Part shown: positions 23,390 through 47,307 of the stretch, piece after piece
Layout of the letters: the number at the start of each line of letters is the position of its first letter
Position numbering within the stretch: the first letter of the stretch is position 1
Source: Ruania alba
Lineage (GTDB): Bacteria > Actinomycetota > Actinomycetes > Actinomycetales > Beutenbergiaceae
DNA: 64,000 nt
NCBI RefSeq assembly: GCF_900105765.1
Contig: NZ_FNTX01000002.1
Location: 930,001-994,000, forward strand
Direction: 5' to 3'
Notes under the pieces: generated by a model
What the model saw: only the letters and a program-made list of their open reading frames with translations
What the model was told of the DNA's origin: nothing
Database searches by the model: none
Translations under genes and position numbers: made by a program

Positions 23390-23950
23390 GTGATGGCACG
23401 AGGTGAGGAAGTGGATCGCAAGATCCACCAGGCTGCGATGGAGTTGCTCCGTGCGCACGGCCCGGCCGCGGTGACCGTGGAGGCGGTGGCGGCTGCCTCC
23501 GGGGTGGCTCGCACCACCATCTACCGCCGGCACCGGGATTCCGATGCTGTGCTGGAGTCGGCCCTGAAGGAGATCGCGGCGTCGAACCTGCTCCAGCCCA
23601 GCGACGACGTGTGGGCGGATATGCGCCAGGCGGTGCAGCTCCTCATCACCACCTTCCAGGAGAACCAGGGGGTGGGGGTCTTCCTCGGGTTGATCACCGG
23701 CGGTGACCCGGACCTGGTCGAACTGATTCGGGAGAAGCTGCTCCGGCCCCGGATGGAGCTGGGGATCGCGCGGATGCGGGCCGGCGTCGCGGCGGGCCAG
23801 ATCCGCGCGGACGCCGATGTGGAGACCGCGGCTGATCTCGTGCTCGGGGCGGTGGCTGCCCGGTTCGCACACTCGGGCAATTTCGACGAGGAGTGGATCG
23901 ATTCGATCGTGGCGCTCATGCGGCAGGCGCTCGAGGTGCGCGAGGACTGA
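23390..23950 (+). CDS. TetR-family regulator, probable regulator of the lipid operon
   Basis: A 186-residue TetR protein with the N-terminal helix-turn-helix (VTVEAVAAASGVARTTIYRRHRDSDAVL, residues about 28-55) and a ligand domain like the TetR_C group (QENQGVGVFLGLITGGDPDL). It lies directly upstream of the lipid operon in the same direction, with a perfect 25-bp palindrome in the gap, so autonomous repression of that operon by a lipid ligand is the likely role (inference). GTG 23390 stands 6 nt after TACCGT (23378-23383). Confidence 0.85.
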   Translation: MMARGEEVDRKIHQAAMELLRAHGPAAVTVEAVAAASGVARTTIYRRHRDSDAVLESALKEIAASNLLQPSDDVWADMRQAVQLLITTFQENQGVGVFLGLITGGDPDLVELIREKLLRPRMELGIARMRAGVAAGQIRADADVETAADLVLGAVAARFAHSGNFDEEWIDSIVALMRQALEVRED

Positions 23951-24032: not shown

Positions 24033-24057
24033 TATCGCTACACACTGTGTAGCGATA
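24033..24057. promoter_or_regulatory. perfect 25-bp palindrome, candidate TetR operator of the lipid operon
   Basis: TATCGCTACACA (24033-24044), a central C and TGTGTAGCGATA (24046-24057) form a perfect 12-bp inverted repeat, a typical TetR-family operator size. It lies 83 bp after the TetR stop and 35 bp before the first lipid gene, where a bound dimer would block transcription. No other long palindrome occurs in this gap. Confidence 0.75.
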
Positions 24058-24092: not shown

Positions 24093-24887
24093 ATGGCCTT
24101 CAACATCGATCGCTTCGCCCGCGACTCCGTGGCGGTGAACTGGGAGGACCTCGACCTCGAGGTCTTCTCCCACGACCCGCTGCCCGCCGAGTCCCTGCGC
24201 ACCCTCCGGTACATGTGCGATGTGGAGTACCACACGGTCTGCTACCTGCGGGACATGCTGGTGACGCCGTCGCGTGGCGAGGGTGAGGTGAACGCCTTCA
24301 TGACCATGTGGAACCGGGAGGAGTTCTGGCACGGTGAGGCGCTCGCCCACGTGCTCGAGCTGCACGGCATCACGGTCAGCTACGACGAGCTGAAGGCCAA
24401 GCGGGTCAAGCTCGGCTGGCGGGACCGGATCGCCCCGGTGAAGCAGGCGTTCCTCTCCAATGTGGTGGGCAAGGACTTCGTGGCCGTGCACATGATCTGG
24501 GGTGCGGTGAACGAGTGGACCGCGGCCGCTGCGTACAAGCGCTTGGCCGCCCTCGAGGGGCATCCGTCGCTCGCGGTGCTGCTCAAGCGGATCGCTGCTC
24601 AGGAGGCCCGGCACGTGGCGTTCTACGCCACCCAGGCGCGCACGCGCTTGGAGGGCAACCCGAAGGCGCAGAAGCTGGCCCGGCTGGCGCTCTCGACGGC
24701 GTGGCGGCCGGTGGGTTCGGGGATCGCCACCGACGAGGAGGTCACCCACGTGATGGGCCACCTGTTCGGCGGTGCCGAGGGGCGCAAGGAGATCCGCGCG
24801 ATCGACTCCCACATCGCGAAGCTGCCCGGGATGGATGGGCTGACGATCGTGGCGGACTCGCTGGACTCCCGTGGGATTGCAGCATGA
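24093..24887 (+). CDS. acyl-ACP desaturase-like ferritin-fold diiron protein
   Basis: A 264-residue soluble protein with the ligand pattern of ferritin-like diiron oxygenases: E45, E77-F-W-H80, E141 and E171-A-R-H174, i.e. two E-x-x-H pairs plus two single Glu in a four-helix bundle. It resembles actinobacterial acyl-ACP desaturase-like proteins, although shorter than plant stearoyl-ACP desaturases. All six metal ligands are present, so it is probably an active oxygenase or desaturase on acyl chains. It heads the ether-lipid-type operon. The ATG at 24093 follows AGGA. Confidence 0.75.
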   Translation: MAFNIDRFARDSVAVNWEDLDLEVFSHDPLPAESLRTLRYMCDVEYHTVCYLRDMLVTPSRGEGEVNAFMTMWNREEFWHGEALAHVLELHGITVSYDELKAKRVKLGWRDRIAPVKQAFLSNVVGKDFVAVHMIWGAVNEWTAAAAYKRLAALEGHPSLAVLLKRIAAQEARHVAFYATQARTRLEGNPKAQKLARLALSTAWRPVGSGIATDEEVTHVMGHLFGGAEGRKEIRAIDSHIAKLPGMDGLTIVADSLDSRGIAA

Positions 24888-25000
24888 GCGCGCGGAGCCC
24901 CCGCGGAGGGATGCCGAGGGACGAGGTATACCGGAGCGAGGCACCGCAGGGGGTCATGCACAAGGAGCGCAGCATGAGGTGCCGCGTGAGCACACGATGA
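24884..25000 (+). CDS. possible 38-residue coupled peptide within a 75-bp repeat copy
   Basis: ATG 24884 overlaps the preceding stop codon (ATGA), and the frame ends at TGA 24998-25000, overlapping the ATG of the next gene (ATGA). The peptide starts MSARSPRGG and contains RSEAPQ. A related peptide in the same coupled arrangement occurs later in the operon at 28894-29073. It may be a real small protein, or a repeat element that keeps the junction open and translated. No ribosome binding site of note precedes it. Confidence 0.35.
   Translation: MSARSPRGGMPRDEVYRSEAPQGVMHKERSMRCRVSTR
24885..24959. repeat. 75-bp operon-junction repeat, diverged copy
   Basis: This copy aligns without gaps to the two identical copies at 28895-28969 and 28982-29056. 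The shared blocks are GGAGCCCCCGCG near the 5' end and CGGAGCGAGGCACCGCAG near the 3' end, with a variable centre. It begins exactly at the TGA stop codon of the upstream gene. Confidence 0.8.
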
Positions 25001-25791
25001 CCAGCAGAACCTTCGACGTCCGTGCCTACGCCTCCGCCCCGGACGACCTGCGCCCCGCCGACCTCGACCTGACCGCCCTGGCAGACCTCCCCCGGCCGGT
25101 GCTGCACACGCTGGCACATGTGTGGTCGACCGAGCGGACCCTGCTGGACCTGATGCGCGACCTGCTCGTCACCCCCACGCACGCCGAGGCCCGGGTGACG
25201 GCGTTCCTCACCACGTGGGCCTACGAGCAGTACTGGATCGGGCAGTCCCTGCGCGCGGTCCTGGACGCCGGCGGGGCCGCACCGGAAGACCTCGCCGACC
25301 CACCGGACACCTCGTTCGGGCGGTTGCGCCGGGCGTGGGACGAACGCGCCCGCCCCACGGTGGACGCGATCGGGACCAACCTGCTCGGCACCGACGTGGT
25401 GGCCGCACACATGAGCGTCGGATGGCTCAGCACGGCCGTGATGGACCTCGCCTACCGGCGCCTCGGCCAGCTGGAACCGCGCCTGCAGGACCTGACGGCC
25501 GCCGTCGGGGTGGTGAAGGCCCGCCACCTGGAGTTCTACGCGGACGAGGCTCAGGCCAGGCTCGAGGCCTCCGCCGGAGCACGTCGGCGCGCCCTGCGTA
25601 CCGTGCGCCGCTGGACCTGGCCGGGGGTGCGTTATGCAGGCCCGACGGCGGTCCGCCCGGCCGTGGTGCATCTGCTCGCCGACCCGTCGGCACGCCAGGG
25701 TGTGCACGCCGTCGATCGGGGTGTCGCGAGCCTGCCCGGGCTCGCCGGGGCGGCCCCGTTGCGCTCGGCCTTGGGTCAATTCCTGCGCTGA
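24997..25791 (+). CDS. desaturase-like paralogue lacking the diiron ligands
   Basis: A protein of exactly the same length (264 residues) as the upstream gene and alignable along its whole length (for example LLDLMRDLLVTPTHAEARVTAF against VCYLRDMLVTPSRGEGEVNAF). Only the first ligand (E46) survives: E77 becomes Q78, H80 becomes I81, E141 becomes T146 and the E of E-A-R-H becomes K174. It should not bind a diiron centre, so it is probably a pseudoenzyme, perhaps the structural partner of its paralogue in a heterodimer (inference). ATG 24997 overlaps the end of the small peptide frame. Confidence 0.72.
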   Translation: MTSRTFDVRAYASAPDDLRPADLDLTALADLPRPVLHTLAHVWSTERTLLDLMRDLLVTPTHAEARVTAFLTTWAYEQYWIGQSLRAVLDAGGAAPEDLADPPDTSFGRLRRAWDERARPTVDAIGTNLLGTDVVAAHMSVGWLSTAVMDLAYRRLGQLEPRLQDLTAAVGVVKARHLEFYADEAQARLEASAGARRRALRTVRRWTWPGVRYAGPTAVRPAVVHLLADPSARQGVHAVDRGVASLPGLAGAAPLRSALGQFLR

Positions 25792-25829
25792 GGCCACAGG
25801 AAGCGCTCGGGCCGCGTACAGTATCCGAG

Positions 25830-28097
25830 GTGTCGGACCCTCTGAAGAACGCCCATGTCCTGGTGACGGGTGCCACTGGATTCGTTGGCCAGGCCGTGGT
25901 GGAGAAACTCCTCGCCGCCTACCCGACGACGCGGATCGCGCTGCTGGTGCGCCCGCGCGGTGCACTCACGGCACAGGACCGGGTGACCAAGCTGCTCAAG
26001 AAGCCCGTGTTCGGACCCTGGCGGGAGAGCCTGGGAGCTGAGGCCGCGGACGCCGAGGCGGCCCGCCGCATCACCGTGATCCCCGGTGACCTCGGCGATG
26101 TGCCCCCGCTGCCGAAGGACCTCACCCACGTGGTGCACTCCGCCTCCACGGTCTCCTTTGACCTGCCCATCGACGAGGCGTTCGCCGCCAACGTCGGTGG
26201 GCCGGTGAGCCTGTACGAGGCACTCGAGGCCACCGGCGCCGACCCGCACGTGGTGCACGTGTCCACCTGCTATGTGGCGGGGCTGCGCAAGGGGCTGGCC
26301 GAGGAACGCAGCCTGGACCACTCGGTGGACCGTGAAGTCGAGATGACCCGCGCGCTGCGCGCCCGCGAGTCCGCCGAGGCGGCCTCCCGCCGTCCGCAGG
26401 TGCTGGACAAGATCCTGGCTAAGGCGCGCGCCACGCACCGTCGCGCCGGTGCGCAGGCCGTGTCCCAGGCCGCTGAGGAAGCCCGCAAGGCATGGGTGAA
26501 CACTCAGCTGGTCAACGCCGGCCGCACTCGCGCCACCTCGGTGGGCTGGCCCGACGTGTACACCTTCACCAAGGCCCTCGGCGAACGGGTGGCTGAGGAC
26601 CTGTGGGCCGGTGGCGGGCACCGTCTGTCCATCGTGCGCCCCACCATCATCGAGAGCTCCTTGCAGCACCCGTTCCCGGGCTGGATCGACGGGTTCAAGG
26701 TGGCCGACCCGCTGATCGCCGCCTATGGGCGCGGCATGCTGCCGGAGTTCCCGGCGCTCGCGGACTCGGTCCTGGACGTCATCCCGGTGGACCACGTGGT
26801 GAACGCGATCCTCGCCGCGGCGGCGAGCCCGCCGGAGCCGAAGGACGCCGCCTACTACCAGGTGGCCTCCGGCAGCCGGAACCCGTTGCGGTTCGGCACC
26901 ATCCTGCGGCTGCTGCGCGGGTACTTCCAGGAGCACCCGCTCACTGACGACGACGGTTCCTTCGTGCAGGTGCCGAACTGGACGTTCCCGAACGGTCCCG
27001 CAGTGCAGCGGTCGCTGCGGCGACGTGAGGTGGCCGTGGACGTGGCCGACTCGCTGGTGGGCCGGCTCCCGGCGAACGACACCACCCGCGGCTGGATCTC
27101 CTCGGTGTACAAGGCGAAGCGGAACCTGGGCACGCTGCGCAAGTTCACCGACCTGTACCAGGCGTACACGCAGACCGAGGTGGTCTTCGACGACACCAAC
27201 ACGCACGCGTTGCACGAGGCGCTGCCTGCCGAGCGGCGTGACGAGCACGGGTTCGACGTCACCGCCATCGACTGGACGTACTACATGCAAGAAGTGCATG
27301 TACCGAAGGTGCCCGGGCTGATGCGTGCCCGTCGCCCGAAGTCCACGCCGAGCACCAGCGCGAAGTCGTTGCCGCAGCGCGAGGACGTGCTCGCCGTCTT
27401 CGACCTGCACGGCACGGTGGCCGCGGCCAGCCTGATCGAGCACTACGTCTGGGTGGAGCTGGCCGCCAAGGGTGTGGTGCCGGCGCTGAAGGGTCTTGGC
27501 GGGATGGTGGCCTCCTCGGGCACGTACCTGCAGGCCGAGTGGCGCGACCGTGGTGACTTCATCCGTTCCTTCATGCGCCGCTACGCCGGCGTGGACGAGG
27601 CGGAGCTGCGGGAGATCATCGCCACGAAGGTGACGCCGTCGCTGCGGGCCCGGCTGCTCGCCGAGGCCACCGAGCGGATCGCGCTGCACCGCGCCGCCGG
27701 GCACCGCACCGTGCTGGTGAGCGGTCAGATCGACGTCTTCGTGGAGCCGCTGGCGGACATGTTCGACGTGATCGTGGCCGGGGAGATGGAGAAGGACTCG
27801 GCCGGGAAGTGGACCGGTCACCTGGCTGCCTCCCCGCTGGTGGACGAGGCCCGCGCCTCGTGGCTGCGTCGGTACGCCCGCGAGGAGGGGATGGACCTCG
27901 CCGGCTCCTACGCCTACGGGGACACCTACGCCGATCGCCCGTGGCTGGAGGTGGTGGGTCAGGCGAACGTGGTGAACCCGGACGCCAGCCTGTACCGGTT
28001 CGCCCGGGAGAAGCGCTGGCCGGTGCACACGTGGACCACGACGGCGGAGGGTCGACTCTCCCCGGTGGTGCGGTCGGTCACGGGGGGCCGCCGATGA
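25830..28097 (+). CDS. fatty acyl-CoA reductase fused to a HAD-IB-like domain
   Basis: A 755-residue protein. Residues 1-330 form an extended SDR domain with T-G-A-T-G-F-V-G (13-20) and Y244-T-F-T-K248, followed by a FAR-C-like segment to about 500; together these match fatty acyl-CoA reductases, which make fatty alcohols with NADPH. Residues 515-740 form a HAD-IB domain with VLVSGQ and YGDTYADRPWL. Its motif I reads F-D525-L-H527-G-T, so the usual second Asp is His, and its phosphatase activity is doubtful. GTG 25830 follows TACAGT (25817-25822) by 7 nt, suggesting an internal leaderless promoter. The stop overlaps the SDR start (ATGA). Confidence 0.85.
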   Translation: MSDPLKNAHVLVTGATGFVGQAVVEKLLAAYPTTRIALLVRPRGALTAQDRVTKLLKKPVFGPWRESLGAEAADAEAARRITVIPGDLGDVPPLPKDLTHVVHSASTVSFDLPIDEAFAANVGGPVSLYEALEATGADPHVVHVSTCYVAGLRKGLAEERSLDHSVDREVEMTRALRARESAEAASRRPQVLDKILAKARATHRRAGAQAVSQAAEEARKAWVNTQLVNAGRTRATSVGWPDVYTFTKALGERVAEDLWAGGGHRLSIVRPTIIESSLQHPFPGWIDGFKVADPLIAAYGRGMLPEFPALADSVLDVIPVDHVVNAILAAAASPPEPKDAAYYQVASGSRNPLRFGTILRLLRGYFQEHPLTDDDGSFVQVPNWTFPNGPAVQRSLRRREVAVDVADSLVGRLPANDTTRGWISSVYKAKRNLGTLRKFTDLYQAYTQTEVVFDDTNTHALHEALPAERRDEHGFDVTAIDWTYYMQEVHVPKVPGLMRARRPKSTPSTSAKSLPQREDVLAVFDLHGTVAAASLIEHYVWVELAAKGVVPALKGLGGMVASSGTYLQAEWRDRGDFIRSFMRRYAGVDEAELREIIATKVTPSLRARLLAEATERIALHRAAGHRTVLVSGQIDVFVEPLADMFDVIVAGEMEKDSAGKWTGHLAASPLVDEARASWLRRYAREEGMDLAGSYAYGDTYADRPWLEVVGQANVVNPDASLYRFAREKRWPVHTWTTTAEGRLSPVVRSVTGGRR

Positions 28098-28897
28098 AGG
28101 GCAGCACCCACACCACCCCGGTCCCGATCACCGGGACCGCGCTGATCACCGGGGGTACTTCGGGGATCGGGCTCGCCTTCGCGCGGGCGCTCGCCGCCCG
28201 CGGGTGCGACCTGGTGCTGGTGGCCCGCAACCGGCAGCGCCTGGACGAACGCGCCGAGGAGTTGCGCGCCGCGCACGGGATCGCCGTGCACACGATCGTG
28301 GCGGACCTGTCCGTGCGGTCGGACGTGGACGTCGTCGCACGCCGGCTCGAGGACGAGTCGGCGCCGGTGGACATCTTCGTCAACAACGCCGGGAGCGGTC
28401 TGCACGCACCGCTGACCCTGCGGGACGTGACCGTGCACGAGCAGGCGATCGACGTGATGCTTCGGGCGGTCCTGGTGCTCGGCGGGGCGGCCGGGCGGGC
28501 GATGGAGGAGCGCGGCACCGGCATCATCGTCAACGTCGCCTCGGTGGCGAGCCAGGTGGCGATGGGCAACTACTCCGCGATCAAGGCATGGGTGGCGACC
28601 TGGTCGGAGAGCCTGAGCCTGGAGCTAGAGGGCACCGGGGTGCAGGTGCTCACTCTGATGCCGGGGTGGGTGCGGACCGAGTTCCACGAGCGGGCCAAGA
28701 TCAAGACCTCCGCGATCCCGGAGTTCCTGTGGCTGAACGCGGACCGGTTGGTGGCTGATTGCCTGGCCGACCTGGAGCGTGGCCGCACCTGGTCGGTACC
28801 ATCCAAACGGTTCAAGGTTCTCTCCTGGTGTGCCGACCACTTCCCGCGGGCCGTGGTGCGACGCGCGACAGCGGGGATCAGGAAGGGGCGCGGATGA
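28094..28897 (+). CDS. classical SDR, candidate acyl/alkyl-DHAP reductase
   Basis: A 267-residue short-chain dehydrogenase with T-G-G-T-S-G-I-G, NNAG and the catalytic S (NVASVAS) and Y-S-A-I-K. The C-terminal part resembles membrane-associated SDRs acting on lipids (VQVLTLMPGWVRTEFHERA). Placed between a fatty acyl reductase and an AGPS, the likely reaction is NADPH reduction of 1-acyl/alkyl-dihydroxyacetone phosphate, the role of DHRS7B/Ayr1 in eukaryotes (inference from context). ATG 28094 overlaps the upstream stop as ATGA. Confidence 0.78.
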   Translation: MKGSTHTTPVPITGTALITGGTSGIGLAFARALAARGCDLVLVARNRQRLDERAEELRAAHGIAVHTIVADLSVRSDVDVVARRLEDESAPVDIFVNNAGSGLHAPLTLRDVTVHEQAIDVMLRAVLVLGGAAGRAMEERGTGIIVNVASVASQVAMGNYSAIKAWVATWSESLSLELEGTGVQVLTLMPGWVRTEFHERAKIKTSAIPEFLWLNADRLVADCLADLERGRTWSVPSKRFKVLSWCADHFPRAVVRRATAGIRKGRG

Positions 28898-29073
28898 GTA
28901 CGAGGAGCCCCCGCGTAGCTGGCGCGAGGAACGAGTGGCGGCGGAGCGAGGCACCGCAGTGCTCAGACCGGGCGGAAGAGTTGAGTACGAGGAGCCCCCG
29001 CGTAGCTGGCGCGAGGAACGAGTGGCGGCGGAGCGAGGCACCGCAGTGCTCAGACCAGAGGGGGAACGGATGA
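28894..29073 (+). CDS. possible 59-residue coupled peptide made of two tandem repeats
   Basis: ATG 28894 overlaps the SDR stop (ATGA) and has GGAAGG at 28881-28886. The frame crosses both copies of the 75-bp repeat and ends at TGA 29071-29073, which overlaps the acyltransferase ATG (ATGA). The two 29-residue units read STRSPRVAGARNEWRRSEAPQCSD. It matches the smaller peptide at 24884-25000. Whether the peptide is functional, or only keeps ribosomes moving to the next gene, cannot be told. Confidence 0.38.
   Translation: MSTRSPRVAGARNEWRRSEAPQCSDRAEELSTRSPRVAGARNEWRRSEAPQCSDQRGNG
28895..28969. repeat. 75-bp operon-junction repeat, copy A
   Basis: Identical base for base to copy B at 28982-29056, with a period of 87 bp. 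It starts exactly with the TGA stop codon of the SDR gene, as the diverged copy at 24885 starts with the stop of the desaturase-like gene. Confidence 0.92.
28982..29056. repeat. 75-bp operon-junction repeat, copy B
   Basis: A tandem duplicate of copy A, without a base change, 13 nt upstream of the acyltransferase start. The perfect identity indicates a recent duplication or active homogenisation. Confidence 0.92.
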
Positions 29074-29825
29074 GCAAGACCTCCCGCTACCACTCGCCCC
29101 TGCACCGCTGGGCGCGGTACTTCGCGCAGCGGCTGATCCTGCGGTCGGTGATCTTCTCGAACGTGCGCGTCACCGTGGAGGGGGAGCGGCACGTGGCCGA
29201 CCTGGACGGTCCGTTCATCGTGGTGGCGAACCACTCCAGCCACCTGGACGCCCCGCTGTGCATCACTGCGTTGCCGTACTCGGTGACCAAGAACGTCGCC
29301 ACCGCGGTGGCGGCCGACTACTTCTACTCCTCCACGTGGCGCAGCATGCTGACGTCGCTGTTCTTCAACTCCTACCCGGTGGAGCGCGGCAAGTCGCGAG
29401 GCAAGTCGGCCGGCTTGTCGGTGACGCTGCTGCGGCAGGGGGTGCCGCTGCTGATCTTCCCGGAGGGCACACGTTCGCGGACCGGGGAGATGGCCGACTT
29501 CACCCCGGGCGCCGCCGCGCTGGGACGTGCGTTGCGGGTGCCGATCGTGCCGGTGGCGCTGGTGGGGGCGCACGATGCGATGCCGCCGGGGACGTTCTGG
29601 CCCAAGTCGGGGCGGATGCCGGTGAAGGTGCTGATCGGTAAGCCCGTGCGGGTGCGCCCGCGGGAGGCGCTGGCCGATCTGAACGCTCGCTTGACGGCGC
29701 GGGTACGTGCCATGCACACGATGCAGACGTCGTACGTGCTGGTGACCGAGGACGACCGCGCCGAGTCCGGAGAGACCGGCCGGGCGGAGAACGACATGCC
29801 GGATGCGCAGGAAGGGATCTCATGA
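29070..29825 (+). CDS. PlsC-type 1-acylglycerol/DHAP acyltransferase
   Basis: A 251-residue membrane-associated acyltransferase with the catalytic N-H-S-S-H-L-D (H-x4-D) motif, a VERG-like block (FNSYPVERG) and F-P-E-G-T-R-S. In this operon it is the candidate for acylating dihydroxyacetone phosphate (GNPAT role) or lyso-ether lipid. ATG 29070 has GAGGGGG upstream and overlaps the end of the small peptide frame. An acidic tail of about 30 residues follows the domain. Its stop overlaps the AGPS start (ATGA). Confidence 0.87.
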   Translation: MSKTSRYHSPLHRWARYFAQRLILRSVIFSNVRVTVEGERHVADLDGPFIVVANHSSHLDAPLCITALPYSVTKNVATAVAADYFYSSTWRSMLTSLFFNSYPVERGKSRGKSAGLSVTLLRQGVPLLIFPEGTRSRTGEMADFTPGAAALGRALRVPIVPVALVGAHDAMPPGTFWPKSGRMPVKVLIGKPVRVRPREALADLNARLTARVRAMHTMQTSYVLVTEDDRAESGETGRAENDMPDAQEGIS

Positions 29826-31504
29826 CCGACGTCGTGCACCAGAAGTGGTGGGGTTGGGGTGTCGAAGGGGTGGCCTTCAACCCTGACGACAAGCCTGGCT
29901 TTGCCCCGTTCGTGCACGATGTGCTCGGGATCGACGTGTCCGGACCGGCCGGGAGCCCGCCGGCGTTCGAGGAGCTAGACGTGCCCGCGTCCCGGCTGCC
30001 CGACGACCTCGGCGGCAGCCTGCGCCGGATCGTCGGTGACCACCACATCACCACCGACGACATGGACCGGGTGGTGCACACCTACGGCAAGGGCCTGCGG
30101 GACCTGGTGCGGGTCCGCGCCGGTGACCTGCCGCGGTTGCCGGACGTCGTGGTCTACCCGGCCAACGAGGCTGAGGTGCAGCAGATCGTCGATCAGGTGG
30201 TCGCAGCCGACGGTGTGCTGATCCCGTTCGGCGGCGGGTCCAACATCTCCGGCTCGCTGACCCCGCAGGCGGGGGAGGACCGCCCGGTCGTCTCGCTCGA
30301 CCTGGGCCGGCTGAACCGGGTACTCGAGATCGACTCCGATGCCGGTCTGGCGCGGGTGCAGGCCGGTGGCCTGGGCCCGGACCTGGAGGCCCAGCTCACC
30401 GAGCAGGGCTGGACCATGGGACACCAGCCGGACTCGTTCAAGCACTCCACCCTGGGCGGGTGGATCGCGACCCGCTCCTCGGGCATGCAGTCCGACAAGT
30501 ATGGAGATATCGCCGACATCACGCGCGGGATGCGGGTGGTGCTGCCGGGCAAGGTGGTCGAGCTGCGGCCGTTGCCGAGCACCTCCACCGGTCCGAGCGT
30601 GCGGGAGATGATCCTCGGCTCCGAGGGGCGCCTCGGCGTGATCACCGAGGCGTGGGTGCACGTGCACCGTTTGCCGGAGAACCGCGAGGTGATCGCCTAC
30701 CTGTTCCCGAACTGGGCGGCGGGGATCGCCGCCATGCAGGAGATCTCGGTCTCCGACGCCACGCCGAGCATCACGCGCGTCTCGGACGCGAACGAGACGG
30801 CGTTCTCCCTGGCCACCCGCAAGGAGTCCAAGGGCCTGTCGTCCAAGGTAGGCGAGGGGCTCTTCGAGCTGCTCCGCCGCCGGGGCTGGGACCTGAACAA
30901 GGTCTGCATCTCCTACATCGGCTACGAGGGCGGGTCCGCGAAGGTCCGGGCCGACAAGTCCGAGGTGGGCCGGATCGTGGGCCGTCACGGCGGCATCAAG
31001 CTGGGCAAGGGCCCGGGCTCGATGTACGACCAGAAGAAGTTCGACACCCCGTACCTGCGCGACTTCCTGCTCGACCGGGGGGCACTCGGGGACGTCTCCG
31101 AGACGGCGACCCCGTGGTCCCGCCTGGGCGAGGTATACGTGGCGACGGTGCGGGCCGCGCGGAAGGCGTTCGCCGAGCTGGACGTGCAGGGCTTCATCAT
31201 GTGCCACCTCTCGCACTCGTATCACTCGGGGGCGTGCCTGTACTTCACCTTCGCGTTCCCGCCGCGCGAGGACTCCCCGCAGCTGGAGCAGTACGACGTG
31301 GTCAAGTCCGCGATCCAGCAGTCCTTCATCGACCACGGCGGCACGCTCTCCCACCACCACGGCGTCGGTACCGACCACGCCCCGTGGATGGAGCAGGACA
31401 TCTCGCCGGCCGGTGTGGACCTGATGGTGGGGCTGCTGCAGTCCGCCGACCCGGGCCGGCACCTCAACCCGGGCACCCTGCTCCCGCCCGACCGGGAGTG
31501 GTAA
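29822..31504 (+). CDS. alkyldihydroxyacetonephosphate synthase (AGPS) homologue
   Basis: A 560-residue FAD-dependent protein of the VAO/FAD_binding_4 family. It shows the AGPS landmarks in order: N-terminal K-W-W-G-W-G, F-G-G-G-S-N-I-S-G, the T-M-G-H-Q-P-D-S-F-K-H-S-T-L-G-G-W block, GSEGRLGVITEA, the SYHSGACLYFTFAF block holding the catalytic Tyr region, and L-S-H-H-H-G-V-G with the active-site His triplet. AGPS swaps the acyl chain of acyl-DHAP for a fatty alcohol, forming the ether bond. The fatty alcohol would come from the reductase two genes upstream. No peroxisomal-type targeting is expected. It ends the operon. Confidence 0.88.
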   Translation: MTDVVHQKWWGWGVEGVAFNPDDKPGFAPFVHDVLGIDVSGPAGSPPAFEELDVPASRLPDDLGGSLRRIVGDHHITTDDMDRVVHTYGKGLRDLVRVRAGDLPRLPDVVVYPANEAEVQQIVDQVVAADGVLIPFGGGSNISGSLTPQAGEDRPVVSLDLGRLNRVLEIDSDAGLARVQAGGLGPDLEAQLTEQGWTMGHQPDSFKHSTLGGWIATRSSGMQSDKYGDIADITRGMRVVLPGKVVELRPLPSTSTGPSVREMILGSEGRLGVITEAWVHVHRLPENREVIAYLFPNWAAGIAAMQEISVSDATPSITRVSDANETAFSLATRKESKGLSSKVGEGLFELLRRRGWDLNKVCISYIGYEGGSAKVRADKSEVGRIVGRHGGIKLGKGPGSMYDQKKFDTPYLRDFLLDRGALGDVSETATPWSRLGEVYVATVRAARKAFAELDVQGFIMCHLSHSYHSGACLYFTFAFPPREDSPQLEQYDVVKSAIQQSFIDHGGTLSHHHGVGTDHAPWMEQDISPAGVDLMVGLLQSADPGRHLNPGTLLPPDREW

Positions 31505-31516: not shown

Positions 31517-31575
31517 GCCGAACGCAACGTTCTGCGGTGTTCTTCGCGTAGACGCCGCACAACGTTGCGTTCGGC
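31517..31575. repeat. 59-bp hairpin repeat (family A), bidirectional terminator candidate
   Basis: GCCGAACGCAACGTT (31517-31531) and its exact complement at 31561-31575 enclose an inner TGCGG/CCGCA stem around TTCTTCGCGTAGACG. It separates the converging AGPS and response-regulator genes. The core and the GCAAC arms recur at 33855-33903. Confidence 0.72.
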
Positions 31576-35730: not shown

Positions 35731-36011
35731 GTGTCACTTTCGGACAGCCGCTGAGCGTGGAGTTCTGCGAGGTGACTGCGCATCTGCTCGGAACTGATCG
35801 CCTGCGACGGGTCGGCCCGCAGCTCGTCGTAGGCAGCTGTGACCTCGGTGCGCAGCCACGTCTCGACGGCTTCGTCACGCGCGAAGAGGGCGCGTAGACC
35901 GTCGCGGACAACCTCGCTCTCACTGGCATACGCGCCGGAGGCGACGCGTTCGCGGAGAGCGTCGGCCATGGTGTTCGGAAGTGTGATGCTGAGTTGCTTC
36001 GTCGTGCGCAT
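35727..36011 (-). CDS. ParD-family ribbon-helix-helix antitoxin
   Basis: A 94-residue antitoxin with an N-terminal ribbon-helix-helix domain (KQLSITLPNTMADALRERVASGAYASESEVVRDGLRALFARDE) and an extended acidic C-terminus that would wrap the toxin. It comes first in the operon, as usual for ParDE, and would repress its own promoter. ATG 36011 has AAAGGG upstream with 7-nt spacing. Confidence 0.9.
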   Translation of the reverse strand: MRTTKQLSITLPNTMADALRERVASGAYASESEVVRDGLRALFARDEAVETWLRTEVTAAYDELRADPSQAISSEQMRSHLAELHAQRLSESDT

Positions 36012-36167
36012 AGTGCACCCTTTCGATATGACTAAATCCTACTCGTGCAGCGCAAGAGAGAAATGAGCCATAGCGGGGTTACCGGCTACGTGGCTCGTCA
36101 TCGCCAGACGGATGACCCTCGCACGGGATCGCGACCCGGACAGCCTGGGCCTCCTCGTGGCAGGGTG

Positions 36168-37403
36168 GTGAGCGTGCCTCGCACCGTCCATCGCCTCCGG
36201 CTCGGCCTGGCCGACCTGATCGCGACGCCCTATCCCACCGTTCCCTTCGACCTGCCTCCCGGGGCCGACACCGTCGAGGTGCGCCTGGCCTACGACACCG
36301 AGGCCGGCGTCATCGACCTGGGCTGCGAAGGCCCGGCAGGCTGGCGCGGCTGGTCCGGCGGGGCACGCGACCGGTTCGTCATCGGCCCGACCGTCGCCAC
36401 GCCGGGATATCTGCCCGGCGAGCTGGAACCGGGGGAGTGGTCCGTCCAGCTCGGCCTCTACCGGCTCCCCGCCGACCCGATCGAGGTCACGGTGACGGTG
36501 ATCAGTCCGGCGGAGTCGCCGATCGACCCTGAGCCCGCACCGATGCCGCCCAGCGAGGCGGCACCCTGGGGGAGTACCCGCCTGCTGCCTGCCGAGCCGG
36601 GCCTGACCTGGTACGCGGGCGATCTGCACGCCCACAGCACCCACTCCGACGGCGAGCAGTCCCTGGCCGAGCTGGCCGCGCTCGCCGTCACGGCCGGACT
36701 GGACTTCCTGGCCGTGACCGAGCACAACACGGTCTCGCACCACGGACTGCTCCCGGACCTGGGCGCCGCACTCGACCTCACGCTCCTGCCCGGGCAGGAG
36801 GTGACCACCGCGCGTGGGCATGCCAACGTCTTCGGCGACGTCGGATGGATCGATTTCCGCCGACCTGCCGACGAGTGGATCGCCGACGCGCAGGCCCGTG
36901 GCGGCCTGGTGAGCATCAACCACCCCCTCGAGGGTGAGTGGGCGTGGCAGCACCGGGTCCCCTCACTCCCGCAGGCCGTCGAACTGTGGCACATCACCTG
37001 GTTCCGGGACCTGCGCTCCACCGAACCCTGGGGGCTGTGGCCCACCTGGCGGCAGGACGCCGTGCTCCTGGGTGGCAGCGACTACCACAATCCCGATCAC
37101 GGCTACCTGCCGGGTACCCCCACCACCTGGGTCGCGGCAGAGTCGGCCGCGCCCGAGGCGATCCTGGCCGGGATGGCCGCCGGGCGCACCGCGATCTCCC
37201 ACCCTGGCCCGGACTCAGCGGTGCTGCTGCGCGTGGGCGAGGAACTGGTCGCCATCGGCGCCGAGGGCGCCGTGCTCACCGATATCGACGGCCGCCAGCA
37301 GCTGGTGACCGGCGACCTCGCCCGCATCCCGCGGGAGCGAGCAGGGCGCGGGCCCTTCCGACTCACGGCACCGGATCGTCGCCTCCTCGCGATCAGCCCG
37401 TGA
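36168..37403 (+). CDS. CehA/McbA-family PHP metallohydrolase
   Basis: A protein of about 411 residues with an N-terminal beta-sandwich-like region (to about 140) and a PHP domain: D-L-H-A-H-S-T-H-S-D-G, AVTEHNTVSHH, LPGQEVTTARGHANVFG and GGSDYHNPDH. It belongs to the CehA/McbA group of putative metal-dependent phosphoesterases/hydrolases. The start is uncertain among GTG 36165, 36168 and 36174. It may once have formed a sugar operon with the symporter and the deacetylase now separated by the toxin-antitoxin genes. Confidence 0.8.
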   Translation: MSVPRTVHRLRLGLADLIATPYPTVPFDLPPGADTVEVRLAYDTEAGVIDLGCEGPAGWRGWSGGARDRFVIGPTVATPGYLPGELEPGEWSVQLGLYRLPADPIEVTVTVISPAESPIDPEPAPMPPSEAAPWGSTRLLPAEPGLTWYAGDLHAHSTHSDGEQSLAELAALAVTAGLDFLAVTEHNTVSHHGLLPDLGAALDLTLLPGQEVTTARGHANVFGDVGWIDFRRPADEWIADAQARGGLVSINHPLEGEWAWQHRVPSLPQAVELWHITWFRDLRSTEPWGLWPTWRQDAVLLGGSDYHNPDHGYLPGTPTTWVAAESAAPEAILAGMAAGRTAISHPGPDSAVLLRVGEELVAIGAEGAVLTDIDGRQQLVTGDLARIPRERAGRGPFRLTAPDRRLLAISP

Positions 37404-37430
37404 CACGCCCGTTGCGAACCACGGTCGGCG

Positions 37431-37479
37431 GTCCGACACGCCGTGGCGGAAGAGTCAGACCGCCGAACCTGTGTCGGAC
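37431..37479 (+). terminator. hairpin after the CehA-type gene
   Basis: GTCCGACAC (37431-37439) pairs exactly with GTGTCGGAC (37471-37479), and GGCGG (37445-37449) with CCGCC (37460-37464) inside it. It begins 28 nt after the stop codon. No T-tract follows, so termination is inferred from position. Confidence 0.45.
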
Positions 37480-37519
37480 GAAGAGTCGGACAGGGGAGAG
37501 CGATACGAGGTGTGGCGGG

Positions 37520-37721
37520 TGTGGGTAACCCCACCCGGGTGTGCACAGACCAGGGGACTCGTCACCTCCCGGACACGTGCTCCGCCGTCGGGGGTGTGGA
37601 TGGGGAGGGGCTGTTCTGTGGACAACTCGGACCGGCCACCGATTACCCACAGGGTGACCCCCAGGTCGTACACAGATGGGGCCCAGAAGTCCACAGCAAC
37701 ACGCCGTCAGGCTGTGGATGA
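37520..37721. promoter_or_regulatory. cluster of DnaA boxes upstream of nrdH
   Basis: Four DnaA-box-like nonamers lie within 202 bp: TGTGGGTAA (37520-37528), TGTGGACAA (37617-37625, the exact complement of the actinobacterial box TTGTCCACA), TTACCCACA (37643-37651) and TGTGGATGA (37713-37721). Weaker matches lie at 37595 and 37687. DnaA control of nrd genes is known in Escherichia coli and Bacillus subtilis. The 520-bp gap 37404-37922 holds no gene; this cluster, the terminator and the NrdR boxes are what I see in it. Confidence 0.55.
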
Positions 37722-37744
37722 CACGCATGTGACCCGACACGCCA

Positions 37745-37792
37745 ACACAACCACTAGGGGTCTCACGGATCAGCCACCACAAGGTGTAGTGT
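37745..37792 (+). promoter_or_regulatory. tandem NrdR boxes of the nrdHIEF operon
   Basis: ACACAACCACTAGGGG (37745-37760) and CCACAAGGTGTAGTGT (37777-37792) both fit the 16-bp NrdR box pattern acaCwAnnnnTwGtgt. Their starts are 32 bp apart, about three helical turns, the spacing expected for cooperative NrdR binding. The operon start codon is 131 bp downstream. Confidence 0.75.
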
Positions 37793-37922
37793 CTCTCTAG
37801 TCGCACGACGTCGAGGCCGACGCAGCGGCTCCGACGAATGACACGGATGTAGTTACATGGCGGAAAGTCCAGGGGGACATCGCCGAGAACGAGCACAGAA
37901 ATGACGAGGAAGGACGCCGATC

Positions 37923-38180
37923 ATGACTATCACCGTCTTCAGCAAGCCGGCTTGTGTGCAGTGCGACGCCACGTACCGCGCGCTCAAGAAGCACGGTCTT
38001 GACTACGAGGTGGTGGACATCTCCACCGATGCCGAGGCCCTGGAGTCGGTGAAGGCGCTCGGTTACCAGCAGGCCCCCGTGGTGTTCGCCGGTGGGGACC
38101 ACTGGTCCGGCTTCCGTCCGGACAAGATCAAGGCGCTCGCGGCTGTGGGGGTCTCGCAGACCTCCTCCGCACTGGCCTGA
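37923..38180 (+). CDS. nrdH: NrdH glutaredoxin-like redoxin
   Basis: An 85-residue thiol redoxin with the redox pair C11-V-Q-C14 and the NrdH C-terminal motif W-S-G-F-R-P-D-K. It reduces the NrdEF ribonucleotide reductase in the cytoplasm using thioredoxin reductase. ATG 37923 has AGGAAGGA upstream. First gene of nrdHIEF. Confidence 0.96.
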
Positions 38181-38265
38181 TCCGACGATGGGGGCCGGGC
38201 AACGGCTCGGCCGCCATCACTGCATCGCCGAACCGCACGTATCACCCAGTGGGAGTGTCACAGCA

Positions 38266-38663
38266 GTGACGGGCATCGTGTACTTCTCCTCGACGTCGGA
38301 GAACACGCGCCGGTTCATCGACCGGCTCGATCTTCCGGCGCGGCGGATCCCGCTGCGCCCCGGGGAGGATGCGCTGCACGTGGACGAGCCGTACGTGCTG
38401 TTCACGCCCACCTACGGCAGTGGGAACGGCAGAGGAGCAGTACCCAAGCAGGTGATCCGGTTCCTCAACGACGAGAAGAACCGCTCACTGATCCGTGGGG
38501 TGGTGGCCGCAGGGAACACGAACTTCGGTTCGGGCTACTGCCTCGCGGGCAACATCGTGGCCCGCAAGTGTCAGGTGCCGCACCTCTACAACTTCGAACT
38601 ACTAGGAACCACTGAGGACGTCATGCGCGTCCGCGAGGGATTGGGACAGTTTTGGCTCAGGCA

Positions 38664-38667
<4 letters not shown>
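38266..38667 (+). CDS. nrdI: NrdI flavodoxin-like protein
   Basis: A 133-residue flavodoxin-like protein with the phosphate loop Y-F-S-S-T-S-E-N-T and the TPTYGSG motif. NrdI supplies the oxidant that assembles the dimanganese-tyrosyl radical cofactor of NrdF. GTG 38266 is the first in-frame start that keeps the complete domain; it follows an 85-bp gap after nrdH and a weak GGGAG. The stop overlaps the nrdE start. Confidence 0.93.
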
Positions 38668-41863
<3,196 letters not shown>

Positions 41864-41895
41864 TCCGGTGAGATCCCGGTGGTGTGCGCCGTCTG

Positions 41896-43221
41896 CTATC
41901 GCACGGAAGCCGTGACGGTGAACTTCGGATCCCGCACGATCTGCCGGGTAGCGCCGACGCTCGCCTCCAGCTGCGGCCGGTAGCGCAGGTGCGAGTTCCA
42001 CACGCACCACAGCTCGCCACCGGGTCGCAGCACGCGGGCCGCGTCGGCGAACAGGCGTGGCGCGATCCGAGCAGTCACCGCAGCGCCGGAGTGGAACGGC
42101 GGATTGAGCATGATCAGATCGGCCGACGCGTCGGACTGGGTGCCGAGTGCGTCGTCCCGGACCACGGTGACGCCAGGCGGCCCGCCGCGAACTGGATGCG
42201 GAGCCGATCCACTCCCAGCGGCGACTCCGTTCGCGATGGCCGTCGCGGTTGCCGACGCGACGGCAGCCGCGGACTGGTCGGTGGCGATCACCCGTGCATC
42301 GGGGTGCGCCCGTGCGTAGGACACCGCGAGGATGCCTGTGCCGCACCCCAGGTCGATCACCCGCGACGCGTCCGGCGCCTGGTCGAGCACGCTGAGCAGC
42401 AGACGCGTGCCGATGTCGACGCCCGCGCCGGCGAACGCGGCGCCGTGTGCGCAGATCGTCAGTCCTGTCGCCTCGTCGCGTTCTGTACGTGGCCAGGTCA
42501 GCGCGCCGGGGTGAGCGGGGCGTGCGCTCGGGCCCGGCCGTTCGGTGGCCGGTCGCACCCGGGTTCGTGGGGCCGATGCACGCAGCACCCGCGACTTGCC
42601 GACGCCTCTGTCGGCCGTGACGGTGTCGAAGTGCCTGGCCAGCACGCCATTCATCGCGGGTGCCATGTGCTTCACGCGACCGCCCGCAACGACGCGAACC
42701 GCCGGGTCGGCGTGGGCCGCAATCAGGCCTGCGATTTCGTCGAGCGCGCCGAGCGACCGCGGCAACTGCATCAGCACGAGAGTCGCACCCGCGAACAGGT
42801 CGCCGTCCAGTGGGTGCCAGCTCACCCCTGGCACCACGATGCTGGCGACGTCCGACGCCTGCACCAGCCCGACGGCAACGGCGTTCAGCCGCGCCGCCCG
42901 TTCTCCGGTGAGGGCGTCCTGATGCACGTGGACCCGGAAGTTCGCGGCAGCCAGCGGCAGCGTGAGCGCACCGTACCGATCCCCCACCACGACCACACGT
43001 GCCACGGGCGCAGTTGTCGTGGACGTCGCCGGAATGCGTCGCTCCGGAGGTCCGATGGCGGGAGTGGTCTCGCGGGCCGGCTCCGGATGATCGAGGCCGG
43101 CCGATTCCAGAATCAGCCGATCGCTTGCGTCGGCCGCCACCAGATCGTGCGCCTCGACATCCGGCCGCCGTCGCATGTGTGGGGCGAATGCGTCGAACGC
43201 TTCGCGGACCGTCGACGCCAT
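41896..43221 (-). CDS. RlmG/RsmC-type rRNA guanine-N2 methyltransferase
   Basis: A 441-residue protein with two tandem Rossmann-like halves. The C-terminal half carries the SAM motif V-I-D-L-G-C-G-T-G-I-L and the catalytic N-P-P-F-H motif of RsmC/RlmG enzymes, which methylate G1207 of 16S or G1835 of 23S rRNA. The N-terminal half is degenerate, as in the family. ATG 43221 is preferred, with TAGTGT 7 nt upstream (43234-43229) indicating a leaderless mRNA. Confidence 0.83.
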   Translation of the reverse strand: MASTVREAFDAFAPHMRRRPDVEAHDLVAADASDRLILESAGLDHPEPARETTPAIGPPERRIPATSTTTAPVARVVVVGDRYGALTLPLAAANFRVHVHQDALTGERAARLNAVAVGLVQASDVASIVVPGVSWHPLDGDLFAGATLVLMQLPRSLGALDEIAGLIAAHADPAVRVVAGGRVKHMAPAMNGVLARHFDTVTADRGVGKSRVLRASAPRTRVRPATERPGPSARPAHPGALTWPRTERDEATGLTICAHGAAFAGAGVDIGTRLLLSVLDQAPDASRVIDLGCGTGILAVSYARAHPDARVIATDQSAAAVASATATAIANGVAAGSGSAPHPVRGGPPGVTVVRDDALGTQSDASADLIMLNPPFHSGAAVTARIAPRLFADAARVLRPGGELWCVWNSHLRYRPQLEASVGATRQIVRDPKFTVTASVR

Positions 43222-43369
43222 GCTGTCCACACTAGGGCACCTCGGCCGTACGTCCGCTGGCTCAGCGCATCCGTGCGGCGAGCCCGATGGCTTGGGCCCT
43301 CTCACGAAGCTGGCGTTGCCGAGGTGCACGGACGACCGGGGCATGTTGCGGCGTCAAGCCAGCAAGCAC

Positions 43370-44149
43370 TCAGCCAACATCAGAGTTCAAGGACGGGAAG
43401 GTGTACGGCGCATCCACCGGGCCCCCTGGCTGGTCAAGATGCGCCGGACGCTCCTGATCGATGTCGAAGACGATCCGTTCACCCACGTAGCGGACGACGA
43501 CGAGCTGCACCGGGAGTTCCTGCTCGTCGACGAGCAGCAGCCGCTGCACCATGAGGGCTGTGCCGATCGCGACATCGAGGAGCTTGGCGTGCTGAGGAGT
43601 GGCAGGCTCGGCCGTCATGGTGCCCCGGGAGCGCACGGGACGGTGCCCGCACTCACCCAGTGCGGCGTGCAGGGAACGGGTCAGGTCGGCGTCGCGAACG
43701 GCTGCGCACCGTAGCGGCAGGACGGCGTCCTCCACAGCGAAGGGGACGCCGTCACCGTTGAGGACACGGCTGAGCGCGATGACCGAACCCTCACCCGGTT
43801 GCTCGAGGTCCGCGTTCTCCTCCCGGCTCCCGTCCCGTTCGGACATGCTCACCACGGCGGCCGAGGGGATACGCCCCTGCCGTCTCATGTGCTCGGTGAA
43901 CGAGAGCAACCGGCTCATCCGCCGGTGGACGGGCTGCTCGGCCACGTAGGTGCCACTGCCGCGCACCCGGTACACCCGGCCTTCGGTCACCAGCGCAGCC
44001 ACAGCTTGCCGCGCCGTCATGGGGCTCACCTGAAATCGCGCGGCGAGCTCGCGATCCCCCGGAAACTGGTCGCCCGGTGCGTAGTGGGTGAGCTCGTCCC
44101 GGAGCTTCTGGGCGATCGTCGCGTGGGCAGGTCGGGTGTCCGCCGTCAT
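43370..44149 (-). CDS. GntR-family (HutC/UTRA) regulator
   Basis: A 259-residue regulator with an N-terminal winged helix (LRDELTHYAPGDQFPGDRELAARFQVSPMTARQAVAALVTEGRVYRVRGSGTYV) and a C-terminal UTRA ligand domain. It is divergent from the sulfatase gene with a perfect operator-like palindrome between them, so it probably represses that gene and itself until a sugar or sugar-phosphate ligand binds. ATG 44149 has GGAGGG at 6-nt spacing. Confidence 0.9.
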   Translation of the reverse strand: MTADTRPAHATIAQKLRDELTHYAPGDQFPGDRELAARFQVSPMTARQAVAALVTEGRVYRVRGSGTYVAEQPVHRRMSRLLSFTEHMRRQGRIPSAAVVSMSERDGSREENADLEQPGEGSVIALSRVLNGDGVPFAVEDAVLPLRCAAVRDADLTRSLHAALGECGHRPVRSRGTMTAEPATPQHAKLLDVAIGTALMVQRLLLVDEQELPVQLVVVRYVGERIVFDIDQERPAHLDQPGGPVDAPYTFPSLNSDVG

Positions 44150-44190
44150 TGTTGCCCTCCAGAGCCGGACGTTGCGGTGAGTTATCTAGA

Positions 44191-44218
44191 GTACTAGATT
44201 CCAGAGATCTAGTACGCT
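44191..44218. promoter_or_regulatory. GntR operator overlapping the -10 of the sulfatase gene
   Basis: GTACTAGAT (44191-44199) and ATCTAGTAC (44207-44215) form a perfect 9-bp inverted repeat with a 7-nt spacer. Its right arm overlaps TACGCT (44213-44218), which stands 7 nt before the sulfatase ATG. A further half-site, ATCTAGAGTAC, adjoins on the left. Bound GntR protein would directly block the promoter. Confidence 0.7.
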
Positions 44219-44225
44219 GGACGGT

Positions 44226-45665: not shown

Positions 45666-45769
45666 TCGGGGACGCGGGCTGTGTCAGCTCCAGAGCCGTT
45701 CGACGGGCAGTGGGACGGTCCTCCGGCGGCCAACTCAGCCGACCACCGCAGCTCCAGTGCCGCGCGACA

Positions 45770-46234
45770 CTAGCTACGTTCTGGGCGCCGCATCCAGGCG
45801 GAAGCAGCCAGGGAAAACCCGAGTGTGGCTCCCGCACCCCAGAGGACGCTTGTCCCCAGCCGCTGCTGTCTGGCGCGGTCGCAGGTGGCAGCGACCCAGT
45901 CACCGACTCGGCTGAGCGACGGATCGTCCAGCCGCGACGCATCGTCTTCGGCGATGACCGGCAAACCATCGACCGTCTCGTTCGACGGCTCCGCGTCGTC
46001 GCGCGCCTGCCGATCGCTGGGATCGGTAGCAGGTCCGGACAGCACCGAACCGCAGCGAACGATCGCGTCCGGCTCGGTCCACTGTTGTCCTGAACCGTCG
46101 TCGCCGCCCGTCATCGCACCTACGTTGACGGTGCGAGTATCCGAATCGAGAAGGCCGACGATCAGCACCACCGCTGCGATGACGCCAGCGACGGCGAACA
46201 CCGCGCCCAGAACGTTCCGCTTCGTCGTGGACAT
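45770..46234 (-). CDS. membrane protein of unknown function
   Basis: A 154-residue protein with a hydrophobic helix at about residues 9-29, an acidic soluble centre containing two Cys (CGSVLSG and ATCDRAR), and a second short hydrophobic stretch near the C-terminus. No family is recognised. Support for a real gene is the TACCCT (46246-46241) standing 6 nt before the ATG, the same leaderless arrangement as elsewhere in the window. The 170-bp gap upstream holds nothing else that I can identify. Confidence 0.55.
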   Translation of the reverse strand: MSTTKRNVLGAVFAVAGVIAAVVLIVGLLDSDTRTVNVGAMTGGDDGSGQQWTEPDAIVRCGSVLSGPATDPSDRQARDDAEPSNETVDGLPVIAEDDASRLDDPSLSRVGDWVAATCDRARQQRLGTSVLWGAGATLGFSLAASAWMRRPERS

Positions 46235-47282: not shown

Positions 47283-47307
47283 GGTCACTCCGCGGCCACA
47301 GTGCGAC

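Follow-up and report, generated by a model that had tools for sequence, protein, structure and literature searches.

A row of six genes in a 64-kb window of the Ruania alba genome (4.83 Mb; window G000:C2:930001-994000, contig NZ_FNTX01000002.1; positions below are within the window) has its closest described relative in the MXAN_1676-1674 operon of Myxococcus xanthus. This operon, in the part of PMC9131029 drawn on here, encodes an AGPS protein, a fusion of FAR1-like and GNPAT-like parts, and an NAD-dependent epimerase/dehydratase protein. The literature search was limited to Creative Commons-licensed papers in PubMed Central, and within it the genetics of an AGPS-type route in aerobic bacteria have been worked out in this one myxobacterium only, with a minor effect of the AGPS gene in the text seen. 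The same part of PMC9131029 also covers CarF and the elb operon, which has FAR-like and acyltransferase domains, an HAD protein (ElbB) and NAD-dependent epimerase/dehydratase proteins in common with the Ruania row. The elb operon differs in that ElbD is a single multidomain protein with ACS and ACP, and in that no AGPS belongs to it in the text cited. Excerpts of other papers describe elbD-type clusters in sponge symbionts (PMC9426513) and Agps homologues in metagenome-assembled genomes of Black Sea Actinobacteria, for which the excerpt describes no operon (PMC11868695); a Paenarthrobacter figure legend lists ether lipids and is silent on an operon of the Ruania type (PMC11719660). A description of the six-gene cluster was not recognised among the papers searched.

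The six genes lie on the plus strand at 24093–31504 without internal stop codons. Their order is D1, a ferritin-like diiron protein; D2, its paralogue; FAR-HAD, a fatty acyl reductase fused to an HAD domain; SDR, a short-chain reductase; PlsC, an acyltransferase; and AGPS. This is the order proposed by a sequence-only reading of the window, and family scans agree with it. The row is a variant of a known set of four activities. As in Ruania, MXAN_1676-1674 combines AGPS, FAR1-like, GNPAT-like and epimerase/dehydratase activities in one operon, but in Myxococcus the FAR and the acyltransferase form one protein, whereas in Ruania the FAR carries a fused HAD domain and PlsC is a protein of its own. 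The HAD fusion, the diiron pair and the TetR gene, all found in Ruania, are unmentioned for Myxococcus in the part of the paper cited. Thus the statement of the sequence-only reading that known loci are not arranged in this way is right as to the order and splitting of the genes and the additional diiron pair, and wrong as to the set of activities. An ElbD-like FAR-ACS-ACP-acyltransferase protein is not encoded among the six genes, to which the search for it was confined.

The row is likely an operon, probably under TetR control, for aerobic ether-lipid synthesis of the animal type, with an alkyl ether as the predicted product. An animal-like pathway is probably present in Ruania and in other actinobacterial families, because the row encodes close relatives of the animal ether-lipid enzymes and the same gene set recurs in these families. 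The evidence observed directly consists of gene content, the motifs of FAR, SDR, PlsC and AGPS, the grouping of AGPS, gene linkage, gene fusions and the conservation of a palindrome. The co-occurrence of genes for a fatty acyl reductase, a dihydroxyacetone phosphate (DHAP) acyltransferase, AGPS and a keto-reductase, as originally suggested, is supported by families, motifs, the AGPS tree and linkage. All substrates and products in the following scheme are predicted ones. FAR would produce a fatty alcohol from acyl-CoA (or acyl-ACP) and PlsC would acylate DHAP at sn-1. AGPS, via FAD, would exchange the acyl chain for the fatty alcohol to form 1-O-alkyl-DHAP, and SDR would reduce the ketone to give 1-O-alkyl-glycerol-3-phosphate (alkyl-G3P), from which housekeeping enzymes would make alkyl-acyl phospholipids or glycolipids. 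D1 may be a diiron enzyme that uses O2 to modify the chain, either at a step ahead of FAR or on the alkyl product, and D2 may be its non-catalytic partner.

AGPS (29822–31504, plus strand, 560 aa) is by family a eukaryotic-type alkyl-DHAP synthase, and the exchange activity is predicted from this. Pfam shows FAD-oxidase_C (6e-37) and FAD_binding_4 (2e-32) domains. The closest PDB entries are Dictyostelium AGPS (2uuu, 5e-113) and guinea-pig AGPS (4bby, 7e-90), compared with 5e-22 for the best D-lactate dehydrogenase. A tree was made from an alignment of 56 rows: 37 AGPS of the cluster type including that of the window (clade a, in which L038 and L104 come from a single genome), a further 13 AGPS-like proteins of actinobacteria (clade b), two eukaryotic segments and four outgroup rows of related FAD proteins. 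Two of the outgroup rows, OUT_L002 and OUT_L004, represent a single gene and were cut as open frames that extend upstream of the likely start; L034_25, the sole outgroup row that was family-scanned, is nearest glcD and below its cut-off. Clade-b loci L088 and L098 were left out, since the gene caller (a home-made codon-usage heuristic) gave no labelled frame of at least 420 aa, and myxobacterial AGPS sequences were not included. Clade a and the two eukaryotic AGPS are monophyletic (FastTree 1.0, IQ-TREE UFBoot 100), to the exclusion of clade b and the glycolate-oxidase-like outgroup; clade b is separate (FastTree 0.89, UFBoot 96). The split of clade a from the two eukaryotes is weak (0.75 by FastTree, 42 by UFBoot), and either could be nested in the other. 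The sequence-only reading had named the AGPS phylogeny as a possible refutation of its own proposal; the FAD protein stands with eukaryotic AGPS and not with the glycolate/lactate oxidases.

Residues R352, R447 and Y508 of Dictyostelium AGPS are termed "important for catalysis" in the part of PMC3509576 consulted. They correspond (chain index offset 3) to R319, R413 and Y474 of the window AGPS. The Arg/Arg/Tyr set is conserved throughout clade a (37/37) and clade b (13/13) and is found in 0/3 distinct outgroup proteins. The HHH loop, which has a catalytic role in AGPS, is present at H511–H513. Clade b belongs to the same superfamily and has the same Arg, Arg and Tyr, but displays 31%–40% identity to the window AGPS and has Gln in 13/13 rows at the position of guinea-pig D303, which is Asp in all 37 rows of clade a. 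Clade b may include Rv3107c of M. tuberculosis, which is annotated "agpS". Because the operon AGPS is closer in the tree to the eukaryotic enzyme than to other actinobacterial AGPS-like proteins, it bears on the origin of the eukaryotic pathway. Compared with the FAR1-GNPAT-AGPS-DHRS7B pathway of animals and Dictyostelium, the Ruania AGPS groups with its counterpart and retains the catalytic residues, and FAR aligns over both domains; PlsC differs, being of the short PlsC/AGPAT type.

FAR-HAD (25830–28097, plus strand, GTG start, 755 aa) consists of a fatty acyl reductase (Rossmann and Sterile domains) fused to a motif-altered HAD-IB domain. Pfam matches are NAD_binding_4 (PF07993, 2e-47), Sterile (PF03015, 4e-9; score 37.0 vs a cut-off of 35.4) and HAD (8e-30). 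Positions 7–495 align to the fatty acyl-CoA reductase 7eoz (7e-47) and span both FAR domains, and the TGATGFVG and YTFTK (YxxxK) motifs are intact, i.e. the protein is of the FAR1 type. HAD-IB phosphatases have a DxDxT motif with both Asp residues, and a motif III Lys. The HAD domain passes the score of the HAD-IB family TIGR01490 (103.3 vs 98.3) and lacks these catalytic residues at Asp+2 and motif III: the window motif is DLHGT, with His at Asp+2, and an Arg is aligned with the SerB Lys. The nucleophile Asp is conserved in 27/27 FAR-HAD rows (26 genomes), whereas at Asp+2 14 rows have His, 5 Gln, 5 Glu and 3 Asp. As Asp+2 is His, Gln or Glu in 24 of the 27 rows, the domain may not be an ordinary phosphatase. 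The three Asp rows are likewise beside AGPS, and among five FAR-HADs away from AGPS three have DLDGT (L143–L145) and the search pattern found no motif in two (L146, L147). The HAD change thus marks a FAR-HAD clade more than it marks AGPS linkage. SDR (28094–28897, plus strand, 267 aa) is a generic classical short-chain reductase (adh_short, 1e-38) with intact TGGTSGIG, NNAG and YSAIK motifs. Its context makes it a probable alkyl(acyl)-DHAP reductase; the mycolate reductase family NF040690 gives 161.6 bits vs a cut-off of 380.

PlsC (29070–29825, plus strand, 251 aa) matches Pfam Acyltransferase (5e-23) and has intact NHSSHLD and FPEGTR motifs. GNPAT is a long protein of the GPAT/GNPAT type, and PlsC, with its short chain and PF01553 as its only domain, is not a member of that family; among solved structures a single relative was found, a 1-acyl-G3P acyltransferase (8e-12). 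PlsC adjoins AGPS on the same strand in 34 of the 39 clade-a loci examined (L025–L036, L038, L072–L087, L103–L109, L139–L141), the five without it being L035, L082, L083 and the contig-edge loci L087 and L141. In three of the 34 neighbouring pairs, from two distant lineages, PlsC and AGPS are in one frame with no intervening stop codon. These are L036 (Microthrixaceae, 808 aa), L077 (801 aa) and L139, which shares its genus with L077; L140, from this same genus, has PlsC and AGPS in separate frames. NCBIfam recognises both the PlsC and the AGPS part of the L077 protein. The natural in-frame fusions suggest that PlsC is the DHAP acyltransferase of the pathway, a protein of the PlsC/AGPAT family in a GNPAT-like role.

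Clade-a AGPS is found in all seven other genomes of the genus Ruania with 84%–93% identity. Linkage of all six genes is seen at 15 loci, in two arrangements. One is the single-strand order D1-D2-FAR/HAD-SDR-PlsC-AGPS, which is present in the window and in nine other loci (L025, L026, L027, L032, L105–L109; Ruania and Occultella among them). In the other, D1, FAR-HAD and a D2-type gene (in D1-FAR-D2 order) are divergent from SDR-PlsC-AGPS; it was found in five (L077, L080, L081, L139, L140). Reduced forms also occur. FAR/HAD-SDR-PlsC-AGPS without D1/D2 is seen in Pseudactinotalea (L028, L038), JB111 (L029), L072–L075 and L103, and FAR-HAD is divergent from SDR-PlsC-AGPS in L078, L084 and L085. 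L079 has PlsC, AGPS, D1 and FAR-HAD, and L086 has PlsC-AGPS. SDR-PlsC-AGPS without FAR is found in L076, L030, L031, L033 and L034; the last four, assigned to Propionibacteriaceae by record title or by genus, all have a 44% identical FAR-HAD elsewhere in the genome (4/4). The gene order is still found where AGPS identity is as low as 51%–60%, whereas partner genes at 45 bits or more are present in 0/15 clade-b loci (L088–L101, L110; 7.7–15 kb each). The linkage is therefore more than chance.

Named loci were mapped by tblastn. Genomes were tallied by hand among 394 of the class (AGPS matches with E of 4.3e-189 or better; thresholds of 1e-90 for FAR-HAD and 1e-8 for D1). Clade-a AGPS is present in 37 genomes, FAR-HAD in 75 and D1 in 41. 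FAR-HAD is found in 33 of the 37 AGPS genomes (7 expected) and D1 in 22 (3.9 expected), both expectations being uncorrected for relatedness; FAR-HAD is within about 10 kb of AGPS in 22 of the 37. D1 tracks FAR-HAD more closely than it tracks AGPS, as 24 of the 25 genomes with a FAR-HAD at least 50% identical contain it, and two genomes (G144, G216) have D1 and FAR-HAD without an AGPS match at 1e-60.

A gene encoding a TetR-family protein (23390–23950, plus strand; Pfam TetR_C_11 3e-16, TetR_N 2e-9), the probable local regulator, lies directly upstream of D1, as it does in 9/9 other loci with the same-strand six-gene order. Between this gene and D1 is a palindrome, CGCTACA-N5-TGTAGCG (24036–24054), which ends 38 bp before D1. 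It was first recognised by eye; the repeat finder returned no inverted repeat for this part of the window. The palindrome is unique in the window at up to one mismatch, with 0.01 expected. In all nine TetR-bearing relatives the arms are exact, the spacers vary, and the sequence starts 59–90 bp before D1; thus it stands between the TetR gene and D1 in 10/10 loci with that order, the window included. It was not found within 250 bp of D1 in D1-bearing loci with other arrangements (4/4), with two mismatches permitted. The palindrome is probably the operator of the TetR protein, and the six genes, which would be co-transcribed, are probably under its control; this is judged from position and conservation.

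Several observations weigh against an ether-lipid operon of this kind. Four of the 37 AGPS genomes have no FAR-HAD at 1e-90, and in 11 more none lies within 10 kb of AGPS. Clade-a AGPS has no partner nearby in L082 and L083, L035 has FAR-HAD, SDR and AGPS with no PlsC beside AGPS, and many AGPS loci are without adjacent D1/D2. In the L036 genome no FAR-HAD is detected at 1e-20, and a different NAD_binding_4 protein adjoins its AGPS. PlsC is outside the GNPAT family, so that DHAP specificity is suggested by fusion and context, and the HAD domain looks altered. Disruption of the myxobacterial AGPS gene lowered ether lipids only slightly, in the passage of PMC9131029 consulted, and lipid data for Ruania were not found among the 15 of 18 literature matches listed. 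Lastly, G144 and G216 carry FAR-HAD and D1 with no AGPS match at 1e-60, which indicates that these two genes also serve another purpose. In G144 genes for a PlsC, a LarA-like protein and a zinc alcohol dehydrogenase (ADH) lie between D1 and FAR-HAD. The locus L130 (G144:C320:12000-26000) displays FAR-HAD, zinc ADH, LarA-like, PlsC, D1 and NAD_synthase-domain genes, and the genes of L132 are similar in size; in the L130 group FAR-HAD and D1 are perhaps put to a different use.

With the same AGPS chemistry, the product could be a secreted, storage or otherwise specialised ether lipid (an alkylglycerol or alkyl glycolipid) and not a bulk membrane phospholipid. The TetR gene and the conserved palindrome fit a conditional product, the spread is patchy (AGPS in 37/394 genomes of the class), no headgroup gene is included in the six, and FAR-HAD and D1 also occur without AGPS. 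However, a glycosyltransferase, an exporter and a wax synthase are all absent from the six genes, and SDR-PlsC-AGPS resembles the route to phospholipid precursors; a specialised product is considered possible and rather unlikely. A similar doubt concerns PlsC. Proteins of the PlsC/AGPAT family are mostly sn-2 acyltransferases, the nearest solved structure is that of a 1-acyl-G3P acyltransferase, and the genome contains two further PF01553 proteins, so that the operon PlsC might acylate alkyl-G3P at sn-2 (the AGPAT role) while another enzyme of the cell supplies acyl-DHAP. A search of the genome for PlsY (PF02660) was negative; it matched in 8/14 control genomes, Corynebacterium glutamicum not among them. 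The in-frame PlsC-AGPS fusions in two distant lineages argue against the sn-2 role, as does a second PlsC-like gene in clusters L078, L079, L139 and L140 that could itself be the sn-2 enzyme, and this assignment also seems on balance the less likely one.

A further alternative is that the FAD protein is an oxidoreductase of the glycolate/lactate type and the operon one of general acyl metabolism. The Pfam domains are shared with such enzymes, and NCBIfam gives a glcD match, which is weak (131 bits vs a cut-off of 568). The PDB E-values (5e-113 vs 5e-22), the tree and the catalytic residues speak against this proposal, and it was rejected as extremely improbable. Under the animal-type pathway, ether lipids are predicted to have been overlooked in Ruaniaceae, Propionibacteriaceae and several further actinobacterial families. 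A compact operon with four predicted activities, a probable operator and PlsC-AGPS fusions would provide a clean system for testing the animal DHAP route in bacteria.

D1 (24093–24887, plus strand, 264 aa) is by motifs and model a soluble ferritin-like diiron protein of the R2lox/acyl-ACP-desaturase superfamily, and D2 (24997–25791, plus strand, 264 aa) is a paralogue 33% identical to D1 that has lost diiron ligands. The motifs (V/I)EYH, EEFWH, NEW and QExxH are present in 13/13 D1-related rows. The two ExxH motifs of D1 (EEFWH and QEARH) are lost in D2; the helix-2 His and helix-4 Glu are replaced in 12/12 D2-type rows, and L077 and L081 retain the helix-3 Glu. D1 scores below the cut-off of Pfam FA_desaturase_2 (PF03405; 20.9 vs 22.7 bits) and D2 has no match to it at 0.01. 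The AlphaFold2 model of D1 (10 sequences) has a pLDDT of 84.2 and a pTM of 0.84. Foldseek yields one match with E < 0.001 (R2lox, 6f6f), followed by ACP desaturases and ribonucleotide-reductase R2, and the TM-scores with M. tuberculosis DesA2 (1za0) are 0.60/0.64. The model makes it fairly clear that D1 has a fold of the R2/acyl-ACP-desaturase type. D1 shares this fold and the four-helix pattern of diiron ligands with DesA2, plant acyl-ACP desaturases and R2lox, but the identity is about 12%–20% in the fold matches. The "desaturase pair" of the sequence-only reading is thus upheld as to the diiron motifs of D1 and their loss from D2, and "desaturase" as a name for D1 is a fold-level guess. D2 is perhaps a non-catalytic partner subunit of D1.

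A more speculative proposal is that D1 and D2 assemble into a heteromeric, soluble desaturase of the diiron type whose substrate is the alkyl chain on the AGPS product and whose products are vinyl-ether lipids (plasmalogens), made by an aerobic route independent of CarF/TMEM189; this is improbable on the present data. If true, actinobacteria would possess a complete operon for aerobic plasmalogen synthesis, made up of the diiron pair plus the FAR-SDR-PlsC-AGPS core. The vinyl-ether desaturase CarF/TMEM189 (PEDS1) may resemble D1 in having a role in the same pathway; D1 differs as a ferritin-like soluble protein. PF10520 (CarF/PEDS1) gave no match in the Ruania genome, and 0/14 control genomes matched either, which makes this control uninformative. 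D1 is adjacent to a second D1/D2-like gene, away from any AGPS cluster, at L119, L120 and L121 (and L122), hence the diiron pair can stand as an independent unit. In G043, G170 and G413 D1 adjoins a second D1/D2-like gene, with no FAR-HAD at 1e-90. A common partner was not seen in D1 neighbourhoods away from the AGPS cluster (10 neighbour proteins scanned).

The earlier statement that most gene junctions are ATGA overlaps is true of only two of the five, FAR-HAD/SDR and PlsC/AGPS, where the overlap is direct. The start codons are favoured choices, and those of the nine same-order relatives were chosen by script. D2 and FAR-HAD are separated by 38 nt. The D1/D2 and SDR/PlsC junctions are bridged by small open reading frames on the plus strand, one of 38 codons (24884–25000) and one of 59 codons with two tandem 87-bp units (28894–29073), each of which overlaps both neighbours via ATGA. 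In the nine relatives a 4-nt overlap is present at FAR/SDR (9/9), PlsC/AGPS (9/9) and SDR/PlsC (7/9); since such overlaps prevail there, ATGA coupling is probably the original state of the junctions. The D1/D2 gap in these relatives is 2–31 nt in six and 68, 115 and 116 nt in the other three, and the 38-codon junction peptide is absent from all nine gaps.

The element in these junction frames has a peptide like x-x-R-S-P-R....R-S-E-A-P-Q; it begins on the upstream stop codon and finishes on the downstream start (ATGA or GTGA), and translational coupling would thereby be maintained. A 55-bp pattern of the 87-bp unit has two matches in the genome (up to 3 mismatches), both in the SDR/PlsC tandem, and a 21-bp pattern is found at one additional place, L138 around 1456–1545 (G000:C2 near 2520516). 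A widely dispersed element was rejected on these counts. The L138 site is a gatC/gatA-like junction by reading of the sequence, without a family scan. The SDR/PlsC junction of R. albidiflava (L026) holds a comparable tandem, with different letters.

Downstream of AGPS are response-regulator and kinase genes in convergent orientation. Between AGPS and the convergent response-regulator gene, a perfect inverted repeat of 15 bp, GCCGAACGCAACGTT/AACGTTGCGTTCGGC, whose arms enclose a loop of 29 nt (31517–31575), was read by eye and is a possible transcript end; the promoter/terminator scan, whose terminator search requires a T-run, gave no match of either sort. Further along the window, positions 36001–52000 have a GC content of 0.65–0.67, compared with about 0.68–0.72 in the rest of the window.

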